Source: Pedobacter sp. AJM (GTDB taxonomy: Bacteria; Bacteroidota; Bacteroidia; Sphingobacteriales; Sphingobacteriaceae). From it: a DNA stretch of 64,000 bases. The position numbers and the translations under genes are program-made. Shown here piece by piece: positions 40,613-48,954 of this stretch (the first letter of the stretch is position 1; each line of letters begins with the position of its first letter). Location of the stretch: positions 1 to 64,000 of the forward strand of contig NZ_NHOT01000004.1 of NCBI RefSeq assembly GCF_002197755.1, given 5' to 3'. The notes below the pieces were generated by a model, which made no database searches, was not told where the DNA came from, and was given only the letters and a program-made list of their open reading frames with translations.

Positions 40613-41575
40613 ATGAAACGCCTTGTCATTTTTCTATTATTTTTTTATACCAGCACTCAGGCTCAAAAAATCCTGCCAGATACCTCCTTTAGTGTATATA
40701 CTACCTACCTTAAGGAGCACAAAAAGCGGCCATACATCAGTATAGCACAACCATTGGTTAAAGGTGATTTCAAAATCAAAAGTAACATGGTATACGCTAA
40801 ATATCCAACAGGTGATTTATCTCTTGATGTTATTTATCCAAAACACAACCGTAAACCATTACCGGCGGTATTATTTGTTTTTGGCGGAGGCTGGCGATCA
40901 GGTCATCGCAGCCAAAACATTCCATTGGCACAGAAAATCGCCCAAAGTGGTTATGTTTCTATTACTGCCGATTACAGGTTATCTACACATGCACAGTTTC
41001 CTGCAGCTGTGTATGATTTGAAAAACACCATTCGATGGATAAAAGCGAATGCTTCAAAGTTTAATATCGATACCAACAAAATTGCCATAACAGGATTTTC
41101 GGCCGGCGGGCAGCTGGCAGCTTTAATTGGCACTACAAATAATGATCCTCAATTTGAAAAGGAAAAAATTAATAAACACTCTAGTAATGTTCAGGCTGTA
41201 ATAGATGTAGATGGCGTATTGGCTTTTGACCATCCTGAGTCTGCTGAAGTCAGTACAGATCCAAACCGGAAATCTGTTGCTGCGATATGGCTTGGTGCTG
41301 ATTTAAAACAAGCCCCTGAATTATGGCACAATGCTTCTGCACTTTATCATGCCGGTAAACAAACAGTCCCCATGTTATTTATAAATAGTTCTTTACCACG
41401 CTTTCATGCCGGAAGAGATGATTTAATTGCCAAAATAAAACCCTTCGGAATCTATTCAGAAATTCATACATTACCTGATACACCCCATCCTTTTTGGCTA
41501 TTTAACCCTTGGTTTGAACAAGTTCATACCCTCATGATTAACTTTTTAGACAAACAGTTTAAACCCTTGAATTAA
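40613..41575 (+). CDS. exported alpha/beta hydrolase (esterase/lipase)
   Basis: A 320-aa protein with an N-terminal signal peptide (MKRLVIFLLFFYTSTQAQ) and the hormone-sensitive-lipase/BD-FAE pattern. The oxyanion site is FVFGGGWRSG, the nucleophile Ser is in ITGFSAGGQLAAL, an Asp lies in the region near PMLFINSSLPRFHAGRDD, and the His in TLPDTPHPFWLFNPW. It is likely periplasmic and may act on esters of polysaccharides or small molecules. It overlaps the convergent DUF3307 gene by 4 bp at the stop codons. Confidence 0.88.
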   Translation: MKRLVIFLLFFYTSTQAQKILPDTSFSVYTTYLKEHKKRPYISIAQPLVKGDFKIKSNMVYAKYPTGDLSLDVIYPKHNRKPLPAVLFVFGGGWRSGHRSQNIPLAQKIAQSGYVSITADYRLSTHAQFPAAVYDLKNTIRWIKANASKFNIDTNKIAITGFSAGGQLAALIGTTNNDPQFEKEKINKHSSNVQAVIDVDGVLAFDHPESAEVSTDPNRKSVAAIWLGADLKQAPELWHNASALYHAGKQTVPMLFINSSLPRFHAGRDDLIAKIKPFGIYSEIHTLPDTPHPFWLFNPWFEQVHTLMINFLDKQFKPLN

Positions 41576-42294
41576 AGCAGAAGCCGGCCTATCCAGGTGT
41601 TTATGGTGAGTGCAACAATAATGGCTATACCAAAACTTAATAAGGTTCCGATTAAAACATATTCTGTTAACTTTAAATCATGCGCCTCTTTTAAATCACC
41701 AAAACGAAAGATGGATTTTGCTGCAAGTAAAAATCCTACTGCTTCAAAATGATTGGTTGTAATAAAGATAAAAATTAATAATCGTTCTAAAATTCCGATA
41801 TACTTTCCGGCATTTTGCAACGATTTAGGGCTTTCATCATCACTTTCGGGTAACCATTTTGCAATAATTACTTTCATAATAATGGAAGTGGGCATAGTTA
41901 AAAACAAAGCACAGGAAATTAAAATCCAGAACCTAATATCATGAAGATAACTCACATCCAGGTGTCCTTTGAAAAAAAGATGCCAGACTAAAACAATGGA
42001 TGAAAAATGAAATATCTGATCAATAAAAAATAGTGCGCGGGCATTTTTTCGAGTCTGGAAAAGACCTTTCGCTCCATCAATAAACAAATGTAATAATCCT
42101 ATTGAAAGTGCTATCTTCCATATACTAAAACTCAAAAAGACGAAAAAAATCAATGCTATATGTACTGCTACATGTATATATAGTTTTCCTGATTTTAGTT
42201 TTTTAGTCGCCTTATCCTTCACCCAAGAATTTGGTTGCAAAAAGAAATCGCCTATTAAATGTACAAGGATGAGCTTAATTAGATAGATGTCCAT
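41572..42294 (-). CDS. DUF3307 membrane protein
   Basis: A 240-aa integral membrane protein with about six helices. The N-terminal motif LILVHLIGDFFLQPNSWVKD-K is the DUF3307 signature (HLIGDFxLQ), and HLFIDGAKG follows. DUF3307 proteins commonly sit beside SatD-type genes, as here: ATG 42294 shares one base with the SatD stop codon. Function unknown. Confidence 0.88.
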   Translation of the reverse strand: MDIYLIKLILVHLIGDFFLQPNSWVKDKATKKLKSGKLYIHVAVHIALIFFVFLSFSIWKIALSIGLLHLFIDGAKGLFQTRKNARALFFIDQIFHFSSIVLVWHLFFKGHLDVSYLHDIRFWILISCALFLTMPTSIIMKVIIAKWLPESDDESPKSLQNAGKYIGILERLLIFIFITTNHFEAVGFLLAAKSIFRFGDLKEAHDLKLTEYVLIGTLLSFGIAIIVALTINTWIGRLLL

Positions 42295-42902
42295 CAGTTA
42301 GCAAATATTTGATTCAATTTTTTACGATACAGTTTATCCATATCCATTAACTCAGCGTAATGCGCACGCTTTAAAGCCTCACTAACAGATGATTGTGTTC
42401 TACCTGAAAGTGTAGCCAACTCACTTTGCAATAGTTTTTCATGTTCCAATGCAAGTTTTACCATCTCTGCAGCAACAATTCCCCAGCTATCCATCGCAAT
42501 TAAGGCAAGCCTAATCATGACATTAATATCTTCATCAAATCCTGGAAAATCAGTTTTGATAGCCAAATTGACTTTTGCTTGTTTTAAGCTATCAAAAGCA
42601 ATTCCTGAATTCACAAATACATCCCCATTTGATTCAGAAAGCTTTTTACGTTTAATTTTAACCTCACCAATTCCTATGCCCATTCTAACATCAGCTGGTT
42701 TATTAATCCTGATGCAGGCTTTTAAATAAGCTGCTGCTTTGATTGCATTTTCAGGTTCAACTTCTATCTGAAAGCTATCTCCCCGGTAAATCTCCCATTT
42801 ATATTGTCCTGCAATCACTTTCAGTGCGCTTTTTAAGTTTGACAACCAACTATCCTTCACTTTTCTGGAACCTACAATATCACCCGTTATAATGCAAATC
42901 AT
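42294..42902 (-). CDS. SatD-family protein with C-terminal helix-turn-helix
   Basis: A 202-aa protein starting at Met 42902 (MICIITGDIVGSR). The N-terminal domain has the SatD pattern (ITGDIVGSRKV, IYRGDSFQIEV, RMGIGIGEV, VNSGIAFDSLK). The C-terminal 60 residues (LQSELATLSGRTQSSVSEAL-KRAHYAELMDM) look like a DNA-binding HTH. SatD is known from acid tolerance in Streptococcus mutans; its mechanism is unclear. The gene is divergent from the DNA-repair ligase cassette, with a triple palindrome in between that this HTH could bind. Nine upstream codons exist but the family starts at MICIITGD. Confidence 0.85.
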   Translation of the reverse strand: MICIITGDIVGSRKVKDSWLSNLKSALKVIAGQYKWEIYRGDSFQIEVEPENAIKAAAYLKACIRINKPADVRMGIGIGEVKIKRKKLSESNGDVFVNSGIAFDSLKQAKVNLAIKTDFPGFDEDINVMIRLALIAMDSWGIVAAEMVKLALEHEKLLQSELATLSGRTQSSVSEALKRAHYAELMDMDKLYRKKLNQIFAN

Positions 42903-42940: not shown

Positions 42941-43016
42941 TATCGGGTAATTACCCGATATTTCATTTTATCGGCTAATTACCCGATATTTCATTTTATC
43001 GGACAATTAGCCGATA
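42941..43016. promoter_or_regulatory. three 20-bp palindromes with an exact 28-bp period (operator array)
   Basis: TATCGGGTAATTACCCGATA (42941-42960, perfect), TATCGGCTAATTACCCGATA (42969-42988) and TATCGGACAATTAGCCGATA (42997-43016) are separated by 8-bp TTTCATTT spacers. They fill the gap between the divergent SatD and exonuclease genes. Equal spacing and conserved half-sites (TATCGG...CCGATA) indicate binding of a dimeric regulator to both promoters. The regulator is probably the adjacent SatD HTH protein, but that is inference. Confidence 0.8.
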
Positions 43017-43056
43017 TTGTTTCAAAACTTAAATTCTGATTTATTGTTTACCTACT

Positions 43057-44112
43057 ATGGCACTAATCGAATTTACGAAAAGGGGTATTTATTGCAAACA
43101 AGGAGATTTCTATATAGATCCCTGGTGGCCTGTAGATTATGCCGTAACTACACATGGGCATAGCGATCATGTTCGTTTTGGTAATAAACATTATTTATGT
43201 CATACATTAACCAAACCAATCATTAAGAGGCGCATCAGTGAAGATTTAAATGTAGAGACACTAAATTATGGTGAAAATATCATCCGGAATGGTGTAAGCA
43301 TTTCATTCTATCCGGCAGGTCATATTATTGGTTCTGCTCAGGTCCGTTTAGAATATAAAGGGGAAATATGTGTCATATCAGGTGATTATAAAACCGAAGA
43401 TGATGGCATTAGTGATGTATTTGAGCCTGTTAAATGCCATTCTTTTGTATCAGAAAGTACTTTTGGCTTACCCGTTTATAAATGGCAAAAGCAAGAAGTG
43501 GTTTTCAATGGAATTAAAAGCTGGGTGAATGATAATATTCAGCAGCAAAAAACAAGTGTATTAATTGCCTATAGCCTTGGTAAAGCACAGCGCCTGATCA
43601 AAAACCTTGCGGGCGACGTTCCTATTTATGTTCATAACAGCATTGCGAATTTAAATGAAGTAATTATTGATGCTGGTGTAAACCTTCCTGAAACCATTAG
43701 AATTACACCAGAAACTACAAAAGATGAGTTGCAAAAAGGAATTGTTATTGTTCCGCCAGCCATGAGGGATAGCCGCTGGATTAAGAACTTATCTCATCCT
43801 GTAACAGGAATCTGTTCAGGCTGGATGCAGGTTCGCGCACATCGACGCTGGCAAAGTGCCGATGCAGGTTTTGCCTTGAGTGACCATGCCGATTGGACGG
43901 GCTTAATGGATGCCATTACTGCAACTGGTGCAGAAAAGGTGTATGTTACACATGGCTTCACTGCTGCTTTTAGTCGGTTTTTAAATGACGAAGGGATTGA
44001 ATCAGAAGAAGTAATGACCAAGTTTGGGCAGGAAGATGACGAAGAAAATAAAGTTGATTTGGCCGATGCTGAAAATCATCATGTTGAAACAGAAAATAAA
44101 AAGTCAGAATGA
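43057..44112 (+). CDS. ligase-associated DNA exonuclease (MBL/beta-CASP-like)
   Basis: A 351-aa nuclease of the metallo-beta-lactamase superfamily, related to SNM1/Artemis-type exonucleases and always found with an ATP-dependent ligase. The metal motif THGHSDHVRFG, PAGHIIGSAQ, VISGDYKTEDDG and the later HADW and VTHGF elements are intact. It is the first gene of a repair cassette; its stop overlaps the ligase start by 4 bp. An acidic C-terminal tail (QEDDEENKVDLADAENHH) is extra. Confidence 0.93.
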   Translation: MALIEFTKRGIYCKQGDFYIDPWWPVDYAVTTHGHSDHVRFGNKHYLCHTLTKPIIKRRISEDLNVETLNYGENIIRNGVSISFYPAGHIIGSAQVRLEYKGEICVISGDYKTEDDGISDVFEPVKCHSFVSESTFGLPVYKWQKQEVVFNGIKSWVNDNIQQQKTSVLIAYSLGKAQRLIKNLAGDVPIYVHNSIANLNEVIIDAGVNLPETIRITPETTKDELQKGIVIVPPAMRDSRWIKNLSHPVTGICSGWMQVRAHRRWQSADAGFALSDHADWTGLMDAITATGAEKVYVTHGFTAAFSRFLNDEGIESEEVMTKFGQEDDEENKVDLADAENHHVETENKKSE

Positions 44113-45707
44113 AACGTTTCTCAAAACTGATTCAGCAACTCGAACTGAGCAATAAAACCAATGATAAAATTGCTGCATTGGTAGATTACTTTAATTATGC
44201 TGACGATAAAGATAAAATCTGGGTAATTGCTTTGTTTACGGGTAAAAAACCTAAGCGCCCGATCAAATCCGCTTTACTCAAATATTGGGCAATTGACATC
44301 ACACAAACACCTGAATGGTTATTTTCAGAAAGTTATTCCAACGTTGGTGATTTAAGTGAAACCATTGCACTGCTCCTGCCCCCTGCCGAAAACACATCTG
44401 ATTTTCAATTGCATAAATGGATTGAAGACCTGCATGATCTGGAAGGCAAAGATGATGAAACTAAAAAAGGGTTTATTTTAAATGCCTGGAACCATCTGGA
44501 AACCCAGGAACGTTTCATTTTTAACAAACTTATTTCAGGAAATTTTAGAATTGGTGTTTCAAATAAAATGCTGGTGAATGCCCTGGCTAAACAAAGCAGT
44601 TTAGATAGTGCACAAATCATGCATAGCATTATGGGGAAGTGGAATCCTTATGAAATTACTTTCCATGAGCTGATTAATGGTGTTCATGTCAATACCGATA
44701 ATTCCTGGCCTTATCCTTTTTGCCTGGCTTATGCCTTGGAGCAGGAACCGGAAAAATTAGGTGATCTATCTGAATGGCAGGCCGAATGGAAATGGGATGG
44801 CATTCGTGGGCAAATAGTGAAAAGAAATGGTGAGCTTTTTATCTGGAGCCGCGGAGAAGAACTGGTAACAGAACAATTTCCGGAGCTCCATTTTTTAATT
44901 GATGTTTTGCCTGACGGGGTTGTACTAGATGGAGAAATTCTGGCCGTACAAGATAAACAGGTTTTATCTTTTAGCACACTACAACAGCGATTAAACCGTA
45001 AAACAATTAATAAAAAACAGCTGGAGGATGCACCAATCGGCTTTTTTGTTTATGATATTCTCGAATATGAAACCCGTGATTTTCGCGATCATCCTTTAAG
45101 TGAGCGAAGAGCCGTTTTAGAGCAGTTATTTGAAAATCTGGACGAAAGTGCAGTTATCCTCTCACCCGTTATCAAGTGCAAGAATTGGAAAGAACTAGCA
45201 GATTTAAGGCAAACCTCGCGTTCCATTAACAGTGAAGGTATTATGCTTAAAAAACTGAGTTCTCATTATCATAGTGGCAGAAAACGTGGCGACTGGTGGA
45301 AATGGAAGATTAATCCCTACACGGTAGATGCTGTTATGATTTATGCACAGAAAGGTAGCGGCAGAAGAGCAAATTTCTTTACCGATTATACTTTTGCCGT
45401 TCGCGACGGAGAAAATTTAGTTACCATTGCCAAAGCTTATTCGGGTTTAACCGACAAGGAAATAAAAGAAGTAAATTCATTTGTCACCAGAAATGCAATA
45501 GAAAAATTCGGACCGGTACGCACAGTAAAACCTGAACTTGTCTTTGAAATTGCATTTGAGGGCATTGCCGAAAGTAAAAGACATAAAGCTGGCCTGGCAC
45601 TTCGGTTTCCGAGGATTTTACGCTGGCGAAAAGACAAAAAAGCAATAGAAATTAATACATTGGAAGATTTACGCCAACTGCTGGAATCGACGTTTATAAA
45701 TGGTTAG
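44109..45707 (+). CDS. ATP-dependent DNA ligase
   Basis: A 532-aa ligase that seals nicks using ATP. An N-terminal DNA-binding domain (about 1-200, with FILNAWNHLETQERFIFNKL-ISGNFRIGVSNKMLVNALAK) precedes the adenylation domain. Motif I is EWKWDGIRGQIV with the adenylated Lys228, then VLDGEIL (motif III), FFVYDILE, SEGIMLKKL (motif IV) and WWKWKINPYT (motif V). The OB-fold follows, ending GLALRFPRILRWRKDK. This cassette type is distinct from LigD. It is translationally coupled to the exonuclease gene. Confidence 0.95.
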   Translation: MKRFSKLIQQLELSNKTNDKIAALVDYFNYADDKDKIWVIALFTGKKPKRPIKSALLKYWAIDITQTPEWLFSESYSNVGDLSETIALLLPPAENTSDFQLHKWIEDLHDLEGKDDETKKGFILNAWNHLETQERFIFNKLISGNFRIGVSNKMLVNALAKQSSLDSAQIMHSIMGKWNPYEITFHELINGVHVNTDNSWPYPFCLAYALEQEPEKLGDLSEWQAEWKWDGIRGQIVKRNGELFIWSRGEELVTEQFPELHFLIDVLPDGVVLDGEILAVQDKQVLSFSTLQQRLNRKTINKKQLEDAPIGFFVYDILEYETRDFRDHPLSERRAVLEQLFENLDESAVILSPVIKCKNWKELADLRQTSRSINSEGIMLKKLSSHYHSGRKRGDWWKWKINPYTVDAVMIYAQKGSGRRANFFTDYTFAVRDGENLVTIAKAYSGLTDKEIKEVNSFVTRNAIEKFGPVRTVKPELVFEIAFEGIAESKRHKAGLALRFPRILRWRKDKKAIEINTLEDLRQLLESTFING

Positions 45708-45755: not shown

Positions 45756-48233
45756 ATGGATCAAACCAAAACCAAAGGTTATAAAAAGATAAAAGCATGG
45801 CTTAAAGCCAATAAGCGTAAGCCTTTTCAATTTCAGGAAGATGCCTGGCAAAATTATCTTAATGGCTATAGCGGTTTAGTAAATGCACCAACTGGTTTTG
45901 GAAAAACTTTTTCTTTGTTTCTTGCTGTGGTAATTGAAGCTTTAAATGCATCAGAAGCCAGTAATAAGAAAGCAAAAGACCGCTTGCAGCTCATCTGGAT
46001 TACACCTTTACGTTCACTGGCTAAAGATTTAGCAAGGGCCATGCGTGAAACCTTACTGGAATTGGAATTAGATTGGCATGTTGGAGTTAGAAATGGCGAT
46101 ACTTCACAAGCCGAGAAAGTTCAGCAGAAGAAATCAATGCCTGAGATTTTATTGATTACACCTGAAAGCCTACACCTGCTATTGGCGCAGAAAGGCTCAT
46201 CAACCTTATTTAAAAACTTAAAATGTATTGTTGCAGATGAATGGCATGAACTGTTGGGCAGTAAACGTGGCGTATTGGTAGAACTTGCCGTTTCCAGAAT
46301 AAAAGGTCTGCAGAAAATTGAGAAAAATCAGTTTTTAAGAGTTTGGGGGATTTCCGCAACGATTGGCAATATAGAACAGGCATTGGATGTTTTAGAACCC
46401 GATGAGGAAGCCAAAAGAATTATAGTAAAGGCAGATCTGGAAAAGAAAATTATCATCAAGTCTGTTCTGCCGGATGATATTGAAACCTTACCATGGGCCG
46501 GTCACCTGGGTTTAAAGCTAGCCTACAAACTTTTACCCATTATTGAAAAAAGTAAAACGACTTTAATTTTCATCAATACACGCGGCCAGTCTGAAATGTG
46601 GTACCAGCATTTGTTAAATATAGAACCTGAGCTGGCAGGCCGGATTGCCATTCATCATGGTTCTATAGATTTCGAACTGAGAAACTGGATTGAAGATGCT
46701 TTACATACGGGGCAGCTGAAGGCTGTAATTGCAACTTCATCTTTAGATTTAGGTGTGGATTTTAAACCTGTTGATACAGTGGTGCAGGTAGGGTCTCCCA
46801 AAGGCGTAGCCAGGTTTCTTCAACGCGCCGGACGCTCAGGCCACTCTCCTCATGAGGTTTCAAAAATCTATTTTTTACCCACACATGCGCTTGAACTGGT
46901 TGAAGCTGCAGCAATTAAAGAAGCGGCAAAAACCAACAATATTGAAAGCAGAGAACCCTTTATTATGGTTTTTGATACCCTGGTACAATACCTTGTTACC
47001 CTTGCCATTGGCGATGGTTTCGACGATAAAATCATTTATGAAGAAATAAGAAATACGCATGCTTTTAAATTAATCCTGCCTGAAGAATGGAACTGGGTGA
47101 TGCAGTTTATCACTTCAGGTGGCGACAGTTTAGGTGCTTACAATGAGTTCAAAAAGGTTACCAAAGATGAAGATGGTCTTTGGAAGGTAAAAAGCAGACA
47201 GCTGGCCATGAGGCATCGCCTGCATATCGGCACTATTGTGAGTGATGCGATGCTAAAAGTAAAATTCCTGTCTGGCGGCTACATCGGCATGGTAGAAGAG
47301 TATTTTGTTACCCGTTTAAAAGCAGGCGATAATTTTAGATTGGCAGGCCGCGTTTTAGAATTTGTGCATGTAAAAGACATGACGGTGATTGTGAGAAACA
47401 GTAAACAGCATAATGCCATTTCACCAAGCTGGAACGGTGGCAGATTGCCACTTTCTTCAAATTTGGGTTCTGTTTTAAGAAAGAAATACAATGAAGCGCT
47501 GGATAAAACGCATCAGGATGAAGAGCTGGATGCTGTTTATCCGCTGTTTTTATTGCAGGAAAAGCGTTCTCATGTACCCAGAAATGATGAGTTATTAATT
47601 GAACTGATCAACAATAAAGAAGGTTTCCATCTTTTTGCTTATCCTTTTGAAGGAAGACTGGTCCATGAAGTTCTGGCCGCATTAGTGGCTTACCGCTTAA
47701 GTAAGTTATTGCCTATCAGTTTTTCTATTGCCATGAATGATTATGGTTTTGAACTGCTCAGTGAAACTGAAATTCCAATGGACGAATCCATAGCCTACGA
47801 AGTGTTTTCACCAAAAAACTTAACTGAAGATATTACTTTAAGTATTAATTCAACCGAAATGGCACGCAGGAAATTCAGGGATATTGCCTGTATTTCTGGT
47901 CTGGTTTTCCAGGGGTATCCGGGTAAATATGTCGCCAATAAACACCTCCAGTCATCTGCAGGTTTGTTTTTTAACGTTTTTAGCGATTATGACAAACATA
48001 ATTTACTTTTGCGCCAGGCTTACGATGAGGTTTTCTACCAGCAATTAGAAGAACCCAGATTGGCTGCTGCCTTGGAACGTATTCAAAACGGAGCGGTCAT
48101 CATCACCAATCCTAAAAGCTTTACGCCACTTTCGTTCCCAATAAAGGTTGATAGTTTACGTGAAAATATGAGTTCAGAAGAATTGGAACATCGCATTGCC
48201 CGGATGAAAGCAGAATCAGAGAAAATAAAATAA
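45756..48233 (+). CDS. ligase-associated DEXH-box DNA helicase (Lhr-core type)
   Basis: An 825-aa superfamily-2 helicase. Walker A is NAPTGFGKTFS, the Walker B/DEXH box is VADEWHELLGSKRG, motif III is WGISATIGN, and motif VI is GVARFLQRAGRSGHSP. The Lhr-type winged-helix and specific C-terminal domain follow (about 450-820; GLVFQGYPGKY and LQSSAGLFFNVFSDYDKHNL). In this cassette the helicase works with ligase, exonuclease and PdeM in DNA damage repair, as inferred from conserved clustering. It lies 48 bp after the ligase. Confidence 0.95.
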   Translation: MDQTKTKGYKKIKAWLKANKRKPFQFQEDAWQNYLNGYSGLVNAPTGFGKTFSLFLAVVIEALNASEASNKKAKDRLQLIWITPLRSLAKDLARAMRETLLELELDWHVGVRNGDTSQAEKVQQKKSMPEILLITPESLHLLLAQKGSSTLFKNLKCIVADEWHELLGSKRGVLVELAVSRIKGLQKIEKNQFLRVWGISATIGNIEQALDVLEPDEEAKRIIVKADLEKKIIIKSVLPDDIETLPWAGHLGLKLAYKLLPIIEKSKTTLIFINTRGQSEMWYQHLLNIEPELAGRIAIHHGSIDFELRNWIEDALHTGQLKAVIATSSLDLGVDFKPVDTVVQVGSPKGVARFLQRAGRSGHSPHEVSKIYFLPTHALELVEAAAIKEAAKTNNIESREPFIMVFDTLVQYLVTLAIGDGFDDKIIYEEIRNTHAFKLILPEEWNWVMQFITSGGDSLGAYNEFKKVTKDEDGLWKVKSRQLAMRHRLHIGTIVSDAMLKVKFLSGGYIGMVEEYFVTRLKAGDNFRLAGRVLEFVHVKDMTVIVRNSKQHNAISPSWNGGRLPLSSNLGSVLRKKYNEALDKTHQDEELDAVYPLFLLQEKRSHVPRNDELLIELINNKEGFHLFAYPFEGRLVHEVLAALVAYRLSKLLPISFSIAMNDYGFELLSETEIPMDESIAYEVFSPKNLTEDITLSINSTEMARRKFRDIACISGLVFQGYPGKYVANKHLQSSAGLFFNVFSDYDKHNLLLRQAYDEVFYQQLEEPRLAAALERIQNGAVIITNPKSFTPLSFPIKVDSLRENMSSEELEHRIARMKAESEKIK

Positions 48234-48315: not shown

Positions 48316-48954
48316 ATGACCATTACAAGCCACGGAGAAGAACTGATATTAGATAAAGAAAGGGCTTTATATTTACCGAAACATCAACTTTTAGCCATTA
48401 GCGATTTGCATTTGGGTAAGTCGGCTCATTTTCGTTCAGCCGGTGTTCAGGTACCATCTACTATAGCGCAAAATGATTTGCAAAGATTAGGCCTATTGAT
48501 TCAAAAATACCAACCTCAAACATTGCTGATTAATGGCGATATGTTTCATCATGGCTTGAATACTGATATTGATGATTTTTCGGAATGGCAACAGCAGTAT
48601 AAACATATAAACCTGCTCCTGGTAAAAGGAAATCACGACAGGTTATCTGATGCCGATTATGCTTCCATGAATATTGAGATACATGACACCAGTTATTGCC
48701 TTGGCCCATTCTGTTTTATACATGATGCACCGAAATGTACAGAAGAAGAGTTATACCCGATCAGCGGACATATTCATCCGGGGGTTACCATAGTTGGAAA
48801 GGCAAAGCAACGGTTAAAATTTCCATGTTTTTATTTCGGAAAGGACTATGCGATATTACCTGCTTTCAGCACCTTCACAGGGTTATACAATATCTACCCT
48901 AAAACAAATGAACAAATTTTTGCCGTAACACCAAATACCGTTGTCGAGGTATAA
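48316..48954 (+). CDS. pdeM: ligase-associated endonuclease PdeM (calcineurin-like)
   Basis: A 212-aa metallophosphoesterase completing the ligase cassette. Motifs: AISDLHLGKSAHFRSAGVQV-P, LLINGDMFHHG, LVKGNHDRLSD and GHIHPGVTIVG. These provide the two-metal centre. PdeM-type proteins are predicted nucleases acting on DNA ends. Length is typical. It lies 82 bp after the helicase and ends 1 bp from the convergent thioredoxin stop. Confidence 0.93.
   Translation: MTITSHGEELILDKERALYLPKHQLLAISDLHLGKSAHFRSAGVQVPSTIAQNDLQRLGLLIQKYQPQTLLINGDMFHHGLNTDIDDFSEWQQQYKHINLLLVKGNHDRLSDADYASMNIEIHDTSYCLGPFCFIHDAPKCTEEELYPISGHIHPGVTIVGKAKQRLKFPCFYFGKDYAILPAFSTFTGLYNIYPKTNEQIFAVTPNTVVEV

Follow-up and report, generated by a model that had tools for sequence, protein, structure and literature searches.

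Repressors such as MetJ, ArgR, and omega act on tandem operators, and fusions of cyclase or GGDEF domains to a helix-turn-helix (HTH) exist, for example mycobacterial Rv0386. The SatD family (PF16264) is known from the Streptococcus mutans sat operon, which is associated with secretion and acid tolerance, and satD has been linked to acid tolerance (PMC10326533). A literature search, made mostly without subscription papers, found no paper on SatD DNA binding, operator, or palm fold. Here we consider a SatD that matches this family by Pfam, encoded in a 64,000-nucleotide stretch of Pedobacter sp. AJM (contig NZ_NHOT01000004.1, positions 1 to 64,000; hereafter the window). We computed the palindrome array beside its gene, the conservation and spacing of that array, its covariation with the protein, and the predicted protein fold. 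Judged from these sequence comparisons, SatD very likely binds the array upstream of its own gene.

The array, its gene neighbors, and the predicted SatD fold

A motif search of the window found exact matches to TATCGG-N8-CCGATA at 42941-42960, 42969-42988, and 42997-43016, with start-to-start spacings of 28 and 28 bp. The features of the locus are as follows.

41572..42294, minus strand: DUF3307 (PF11750) protein, abutting satD in the same operon (Pfam match; neighbor of satD in 80 of 80 named relatives)
42294..42902, minus strand: satD (PF16264), 202 aa, with a predicted N-terminal palm of cyclase/GGDEF/Cas10 type and a predicted C-terminal HTH (Pfam match, model)
42366..42428, minus strand: predicted SatD HTH, residues 159-179; the codon of E175, the top covarying residue, is at 42378-42380 (model, covariation)
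42941..43016, no strand: putative operator array, three 20-bp palindromes TATCGG-N8-CCGATA with a period of 28 bp (motif matches, shuffles, conservation upstream of satD)
42941..42960, no strand: palindrome 1, TATCGGGTAATTACCCGATA, symmetric over all 20 bp; 38 bp from the satD ATG (42902)
42969..42988, no strand: palindrome 2, TATCGGCTAATTACCCGATA
42997..43016, no strand: palindrome 3, TATCGGACAATTAGCCGATA; 40 bp from the exonuclease ATG (43057)
43025..43048, plus strand: AAAC-N17-GTT element, -32/-11 relative to the exonuclease start (conserved at cassettes both beside satD and away from it)
43057..44112, plus strand: ligase-associated exonuclease (TIGR04122, 449.2 bits)
44109..45707, plus strand: ATP-dependent DNA ligase (TIGR04120, 629.8 bits)
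45756..48233, plus strand: ligase-associated DEXH helicase (TIGR04121, 1070.2 bits)
48316..48954, plus strand: PdeM phosphoesterase (TIGR04123, 220.5 bits)

The intergenic region is centered on the array, with the satD ATG 38 bp away on one side and the exonuclease ATG 40 bp away on the other. None of 60 dinucleotide shuffles of the window contained the motif or a 28-bp pair of equal-armed dyads, and the rest of the 4.88-Mb genome held only one further exact dyad, which was isolated and had an unlike core. The first-pass annotation had pointed to three palindromes at exact 28-bp spacing, one of them fully symmetric, between satD/DUF3307 and a divergent series of exonuclease, ligase, helicase, and PdeM genes. 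This description holds throughout, and the symmetric copy is palindrome 1.

Window SatD reached the gathering score of PF16264 (29.9 bits, cut-off 29, residues 5-179). Within the window's bacterial family, satD was present in 161 of 301 genomes and was followed by DUF3307 in 90/90 loci, as it was in 80/80 named relatives; the two genes usually overlap or stand within a few bases of each other. A sequence search of the PDB gave no convincing match for SatD and none for DUF3307. PADLOC matched neither protein, and on that ground we rejected the two as members of a defense system.

The structural model of SatD was confident (pLDDT 93.8, pTM 0.91) and showed a palm of the kind seen in GGDEF proteins, class III cyclases, and Cas10. 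Residues 1-120 matched palm folds at Z of about 10, including MJ0145 (10.8), Cmr2 (Cas10; 10.5), and the GGDEF domain of DosC (10.4), with class III cyclases also found at Z of about 10. Foldseek returned Cas10 of Csm (E 5.8e-4) and also listed Panoptes mCpol. D8, D42, and an RGDSF(Q) hairpin are invariant among SatD homologues; the GGDEF signature itself is absent, its hairpin being RGDSF throughout, and a Pfam search of window SatD gave no GGDEF match. From this modeled fold, the palm would sense or process a nucleotide and so set DNA binding. The C-terminal HTH that had been read from the sequence reappears in the model as a tri-helical element, with helices at residues 159-166 and 170-179 (the latter the predicted recognition helix), and many SatD homologues are weakly matched by HTH profiles.

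Co-occurrence and covariation of the array with satD

Of 260 Bacteroidota satD loci, 252 have palindromes in tandem upstream of the gene, spaced 28 (or 29) bp and above the 99th percentile of shuffles. Nearly all satD genes among the family loci and named relatives have such arrays, whether or not the ligase cassette is present, and most Bacteroidota satD loci with an array have no ligase cassette nearby. Across 166 non-redundant arrays, a free scan of periods from 20 to 44 bp gave a best period of 28 in 140 and 29 in 23, and the most frequent inner gap was 8 bp. Arrays contain two to seven copies, mostly three. The gap between the last palindrome and the start codon of satD is most often 7-9 bp, and some Pedobacter arrays stand 38-40 bp upstream of the gene. 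In 28-bp arrays the half-sites follow one another at an even 14 bp, but few of them are orphans (7/153 and 6/103); we therefore take the palindrome as the unit of the array and rejected a lattice of independent half-sites.

Among Pedobacter genomes, 51 of the 52 that have a close satD carry CGG-type tandem arrays, compared with 1 of the 17 that do not. The exception among the 52, G194 (locus L033), has an array of the TATCTG variant, and the lone array among the 17 lies in a prophage-like region.

Half-sites differ by clade and include TATCGG, TATCAT, TATCAC, TATAAG, TATCTG, TATTCC, TATTAC, and TATCGT, among others. Normalized mutual information with half-site bases 4-6, a measure inflated by relatedness, ranked E175 first of about 200 SatD columns (0.487, next 0.348), with S172 third and T169 fourth; all three lie in or beside the predicted recognition helix (170-179). 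Glutamate at position 175 was paired with CGG in 64/80, threonine with CAT/CAC, lysine with TCC, arginine with TAC, and glutamine with AAG. In the stricter comparison of disjoint pairs, S172, S171, K178, T169, and E175 changed more often when half-sites differed, with D138 and K16 ranking above the recognition-helix residues and E175 twelfth (p 0.003). TATCGG stands with QSSVSE in L018 and TATCTG with QPLVSG in L033, a Pedobacter pair with 81% identical proteins, and Pedobacter jejuensis (L116, of which L033 has the same sequence) carries TATCTG in three of three copies along with QPLVSG in place of QSSVSE. Since residue 175 tracks the half-site best, SatD is very probably the protein that reads the array.

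These patterns bear on two other readings. Palindromes are targets of many regulators and SatD binding here is a prediction, so a regulator encoded elsewhere could bind the array and control both satD and the cassette, with SatD only a target. We consider this improbable, as the half-site changes together with the recognition helix of SatD, and Pedobacter genomes that lack a close satD have no CGG array apart from the prophage-like case. It is less credible still that the palindromes serve as hairpins in RNA, as terminators, or as structural repeats instead of binding a protein. Each could form a short hairpin, and four genomes have a similar pair that overlaps a DUF6965 gene at its 3' end. 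However, the palindromes occupy the space between divergent starts or immediately precede a start codon, their 28-29 bp phasing is kept over highly diverged loci, and they change in step with the protein helix.

The divergent DNA-repair cassette

All four genes divergent from satD scored above the cut-offs of their TIGR profiles, which identifies a ligase-associated DNA damage response cassette. The first-pass annotation had proposed that SatD is a self-controlled regulator of this DNA-repair system. The self-control is strongly supported by the co-occurrence and covariation described above; the repair link is not, as the cassette is a Pedobacter-only neighbor, sampled exonuclease loci with no satD beside them lack the array, and the cassette has an upstream element of its own (below). 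If SatD were a dedicated regulator of the cassette, with the array conserved for that reason, the location would be apt: the cassette is adjacent and divergent at nearly all close satD loci in Pedobacter, and the array lies midway between the satD and exonuclease start codons. However, among 90 family loci the cassette is the divergent neighbor of satD only in Pedobacter (one member is filed as Nubsella), and array and satD are kept without a nearby cassette in genera beyond Pedobacter and across much of Bacteroidota. The proposed check, a search for the motif upstream of ligase cassettes in relatives, went against a dedicated repair role: of 30 sampled exonuclease loci, 29 had no array, and the one that did (L214) has satD beside it. 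Additionally, G050, G071, G120, and G145, all Pedobacter genomes in which a close satD is missing, retain an exonuclease above the cut-off and lack a CGG array. We therefore regard a dedicated repair regulator as unlikely.

The cassette has an upstream element of its own. An AAAC/GTT element, searched with spacers of 14-20, of which 17 was commonest, precedes the exonuclease start at about -32/-11 in 87/87 satD-adjacent loci and 17/30 other loci, compared with 2.7% in shuffles. Loci across the family (L211-L240) thus carry AAAC-N17-GTT before this exonuclease, and the window has one such site, at 43025. The window array ends 8 bp before this element and thus abuts it, so cross-regulation of the cassette by SatD is possible. 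The Bacteroidetes LexA site is CTAA-N5-TTAG (PMC8565304), and it has no match in the window; we accordingly rejected LexA/SOS control of the cassette, and there is no independent sign of damage control. Overall, the repair link is a Pedobacter-only neighborhood and a role of SatD in DNA repair is unproven, while an effect of SatD on the divergent cassette in Pedobacter is possible from its position.

Proposed regulation, phage-borne arrays, and known systems

The reading we prefer, with a probability of roughly 0.8, is that the array is the SatD operator, with one dimer per palindrome, most likely repression of satD-DUF3307, nucleotide control through the palm, and at most a local effect on the cassette. 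A SatD dimer would dock on each 20-bp palindrome through its C-terminal HTH, with neighboring dimers at a fixed 28-bp phase, and bound SatD would most likely repress the satD-DUF3307 operon. The N-terminal palm would sense or process a nucleotide and thereby set DNA binding. In Pedobacter, where the intergenic region is shared, SatD may touch the repair cassette too, as a local by-effect and not a conserved role. We infer dimer binding, repression, nucleotide control, and any cassette effect; SatD is most likely a self-regulated regulator of satD-DUF3307, and possibly a nucleotide-responsive one.

Self-repression is likely, with the sign of regulation read from position. Repression of satD-DUF3307 is the most likely outcome because the last palindrome ends 7-9 bp short of the satD start in many relatives; the distance of 38-40 bp in part of Pedobacter would suit an activator also. 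In Streptococcus pyogenes, satD was reported to be essential yet accessory (PMC11323703), which is compatible with SatD repressing a harmful partner.

Arrays of this type also occur away from satD. CGG pairs at L241-L246 in Pedobacter and L251 in a neighboring genus sit among phage genes (for example integrase, terminase, DnaC-like loader, and phage ATPase), and L241 matches a viral contig. In an IMG/VR scan with gaps of 2 to 32 allowed, each of the 21 stretches that hold two CGG palindromes had a period of 28 or 29, as did 17/26 for TATTAC and 2/4 for TATCTG; the reversed control gave two stretches, neither at 28 or 29. We did not detect satD in the 21 CGG-type viral records, the majority of them possibly fragments, and SatD and DUF3307 had no match in a phage genome collection. 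Phage arrays lay outside open reading frames of at least 80 aa in 39 of 40 cases. Their placement and spacing suggest that phages may use or titrate host SatD.

Several further observations concern these elements. Predicted SatD-type tandem operators stand in prophages or phage contigs without a detected satD at L241-L246, L251, L254-L268, and L363-L368. SRAP (PF02586) genes lie near phage arrays L255, L257, L258, and L261, and DUF6965 (PF22292) lies beside L255, L258, and L261. In Pedobacter G284 the satD match is only a short fragment (L253), and a prophage keeps a SatD-type array (L246). The 102-kb viral contig of L364 (locus L401) has a 29-bp CGG array and encodes a DUF3307 relative. On chromosomes of genus g15 (L247-L250), a CGG pair and the 3' end of a DUF6965 gene overlap, with trpS adjoining in three; we left these pairs uncounted in the regulon as they may be hairpins. 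TATTCC pairs in viral contigs L269-L272 were discarded because they lie inside a conserved phage gene.

A broader proposal, which we offer tentatively and at somewhat less than even odds, is that SatD founds a phylum-wide group of nucleotide-sensing autoregulators, each a cyclase-type palm with an HTH, that guard the membrane protein DUF3307, and that many Bacteroidota phages copied its array to use or titrate host SatD. SatD is otherwise uncharacterized in the papers we found, and the predicted operator, recognition code, and fold allow it to be tested as a transcription factor whose palm likely binds a nucleotide. The phage-borne copies point to a host regulator exploited by phages and offer a ready assay for what SatD senses.

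Compared with described systems, SatD combines familiar parts in a different arrangement. Cas10 and mCpol palm polymerases are among its closest predicted-fold matches, but unlike in their systems, no CRISPR or Panoptes genes were seen beside satD and PADLOC gave no match. As in Rv0386-type fusions, a palm of cyclase/GGDEF fold is joined to a DNA-binding domain; unlike them, SatD has RGDSF in place of GGDEF, is far smaller, and is predicted to autoregulate through an array. Like MetJ, ArgR, and omega, SatD would work as dimers on phased repeats upstream of its own gene, whereas its fold is unrelated to theirs and its operator units are palindromic and set at a 28-bp phase.
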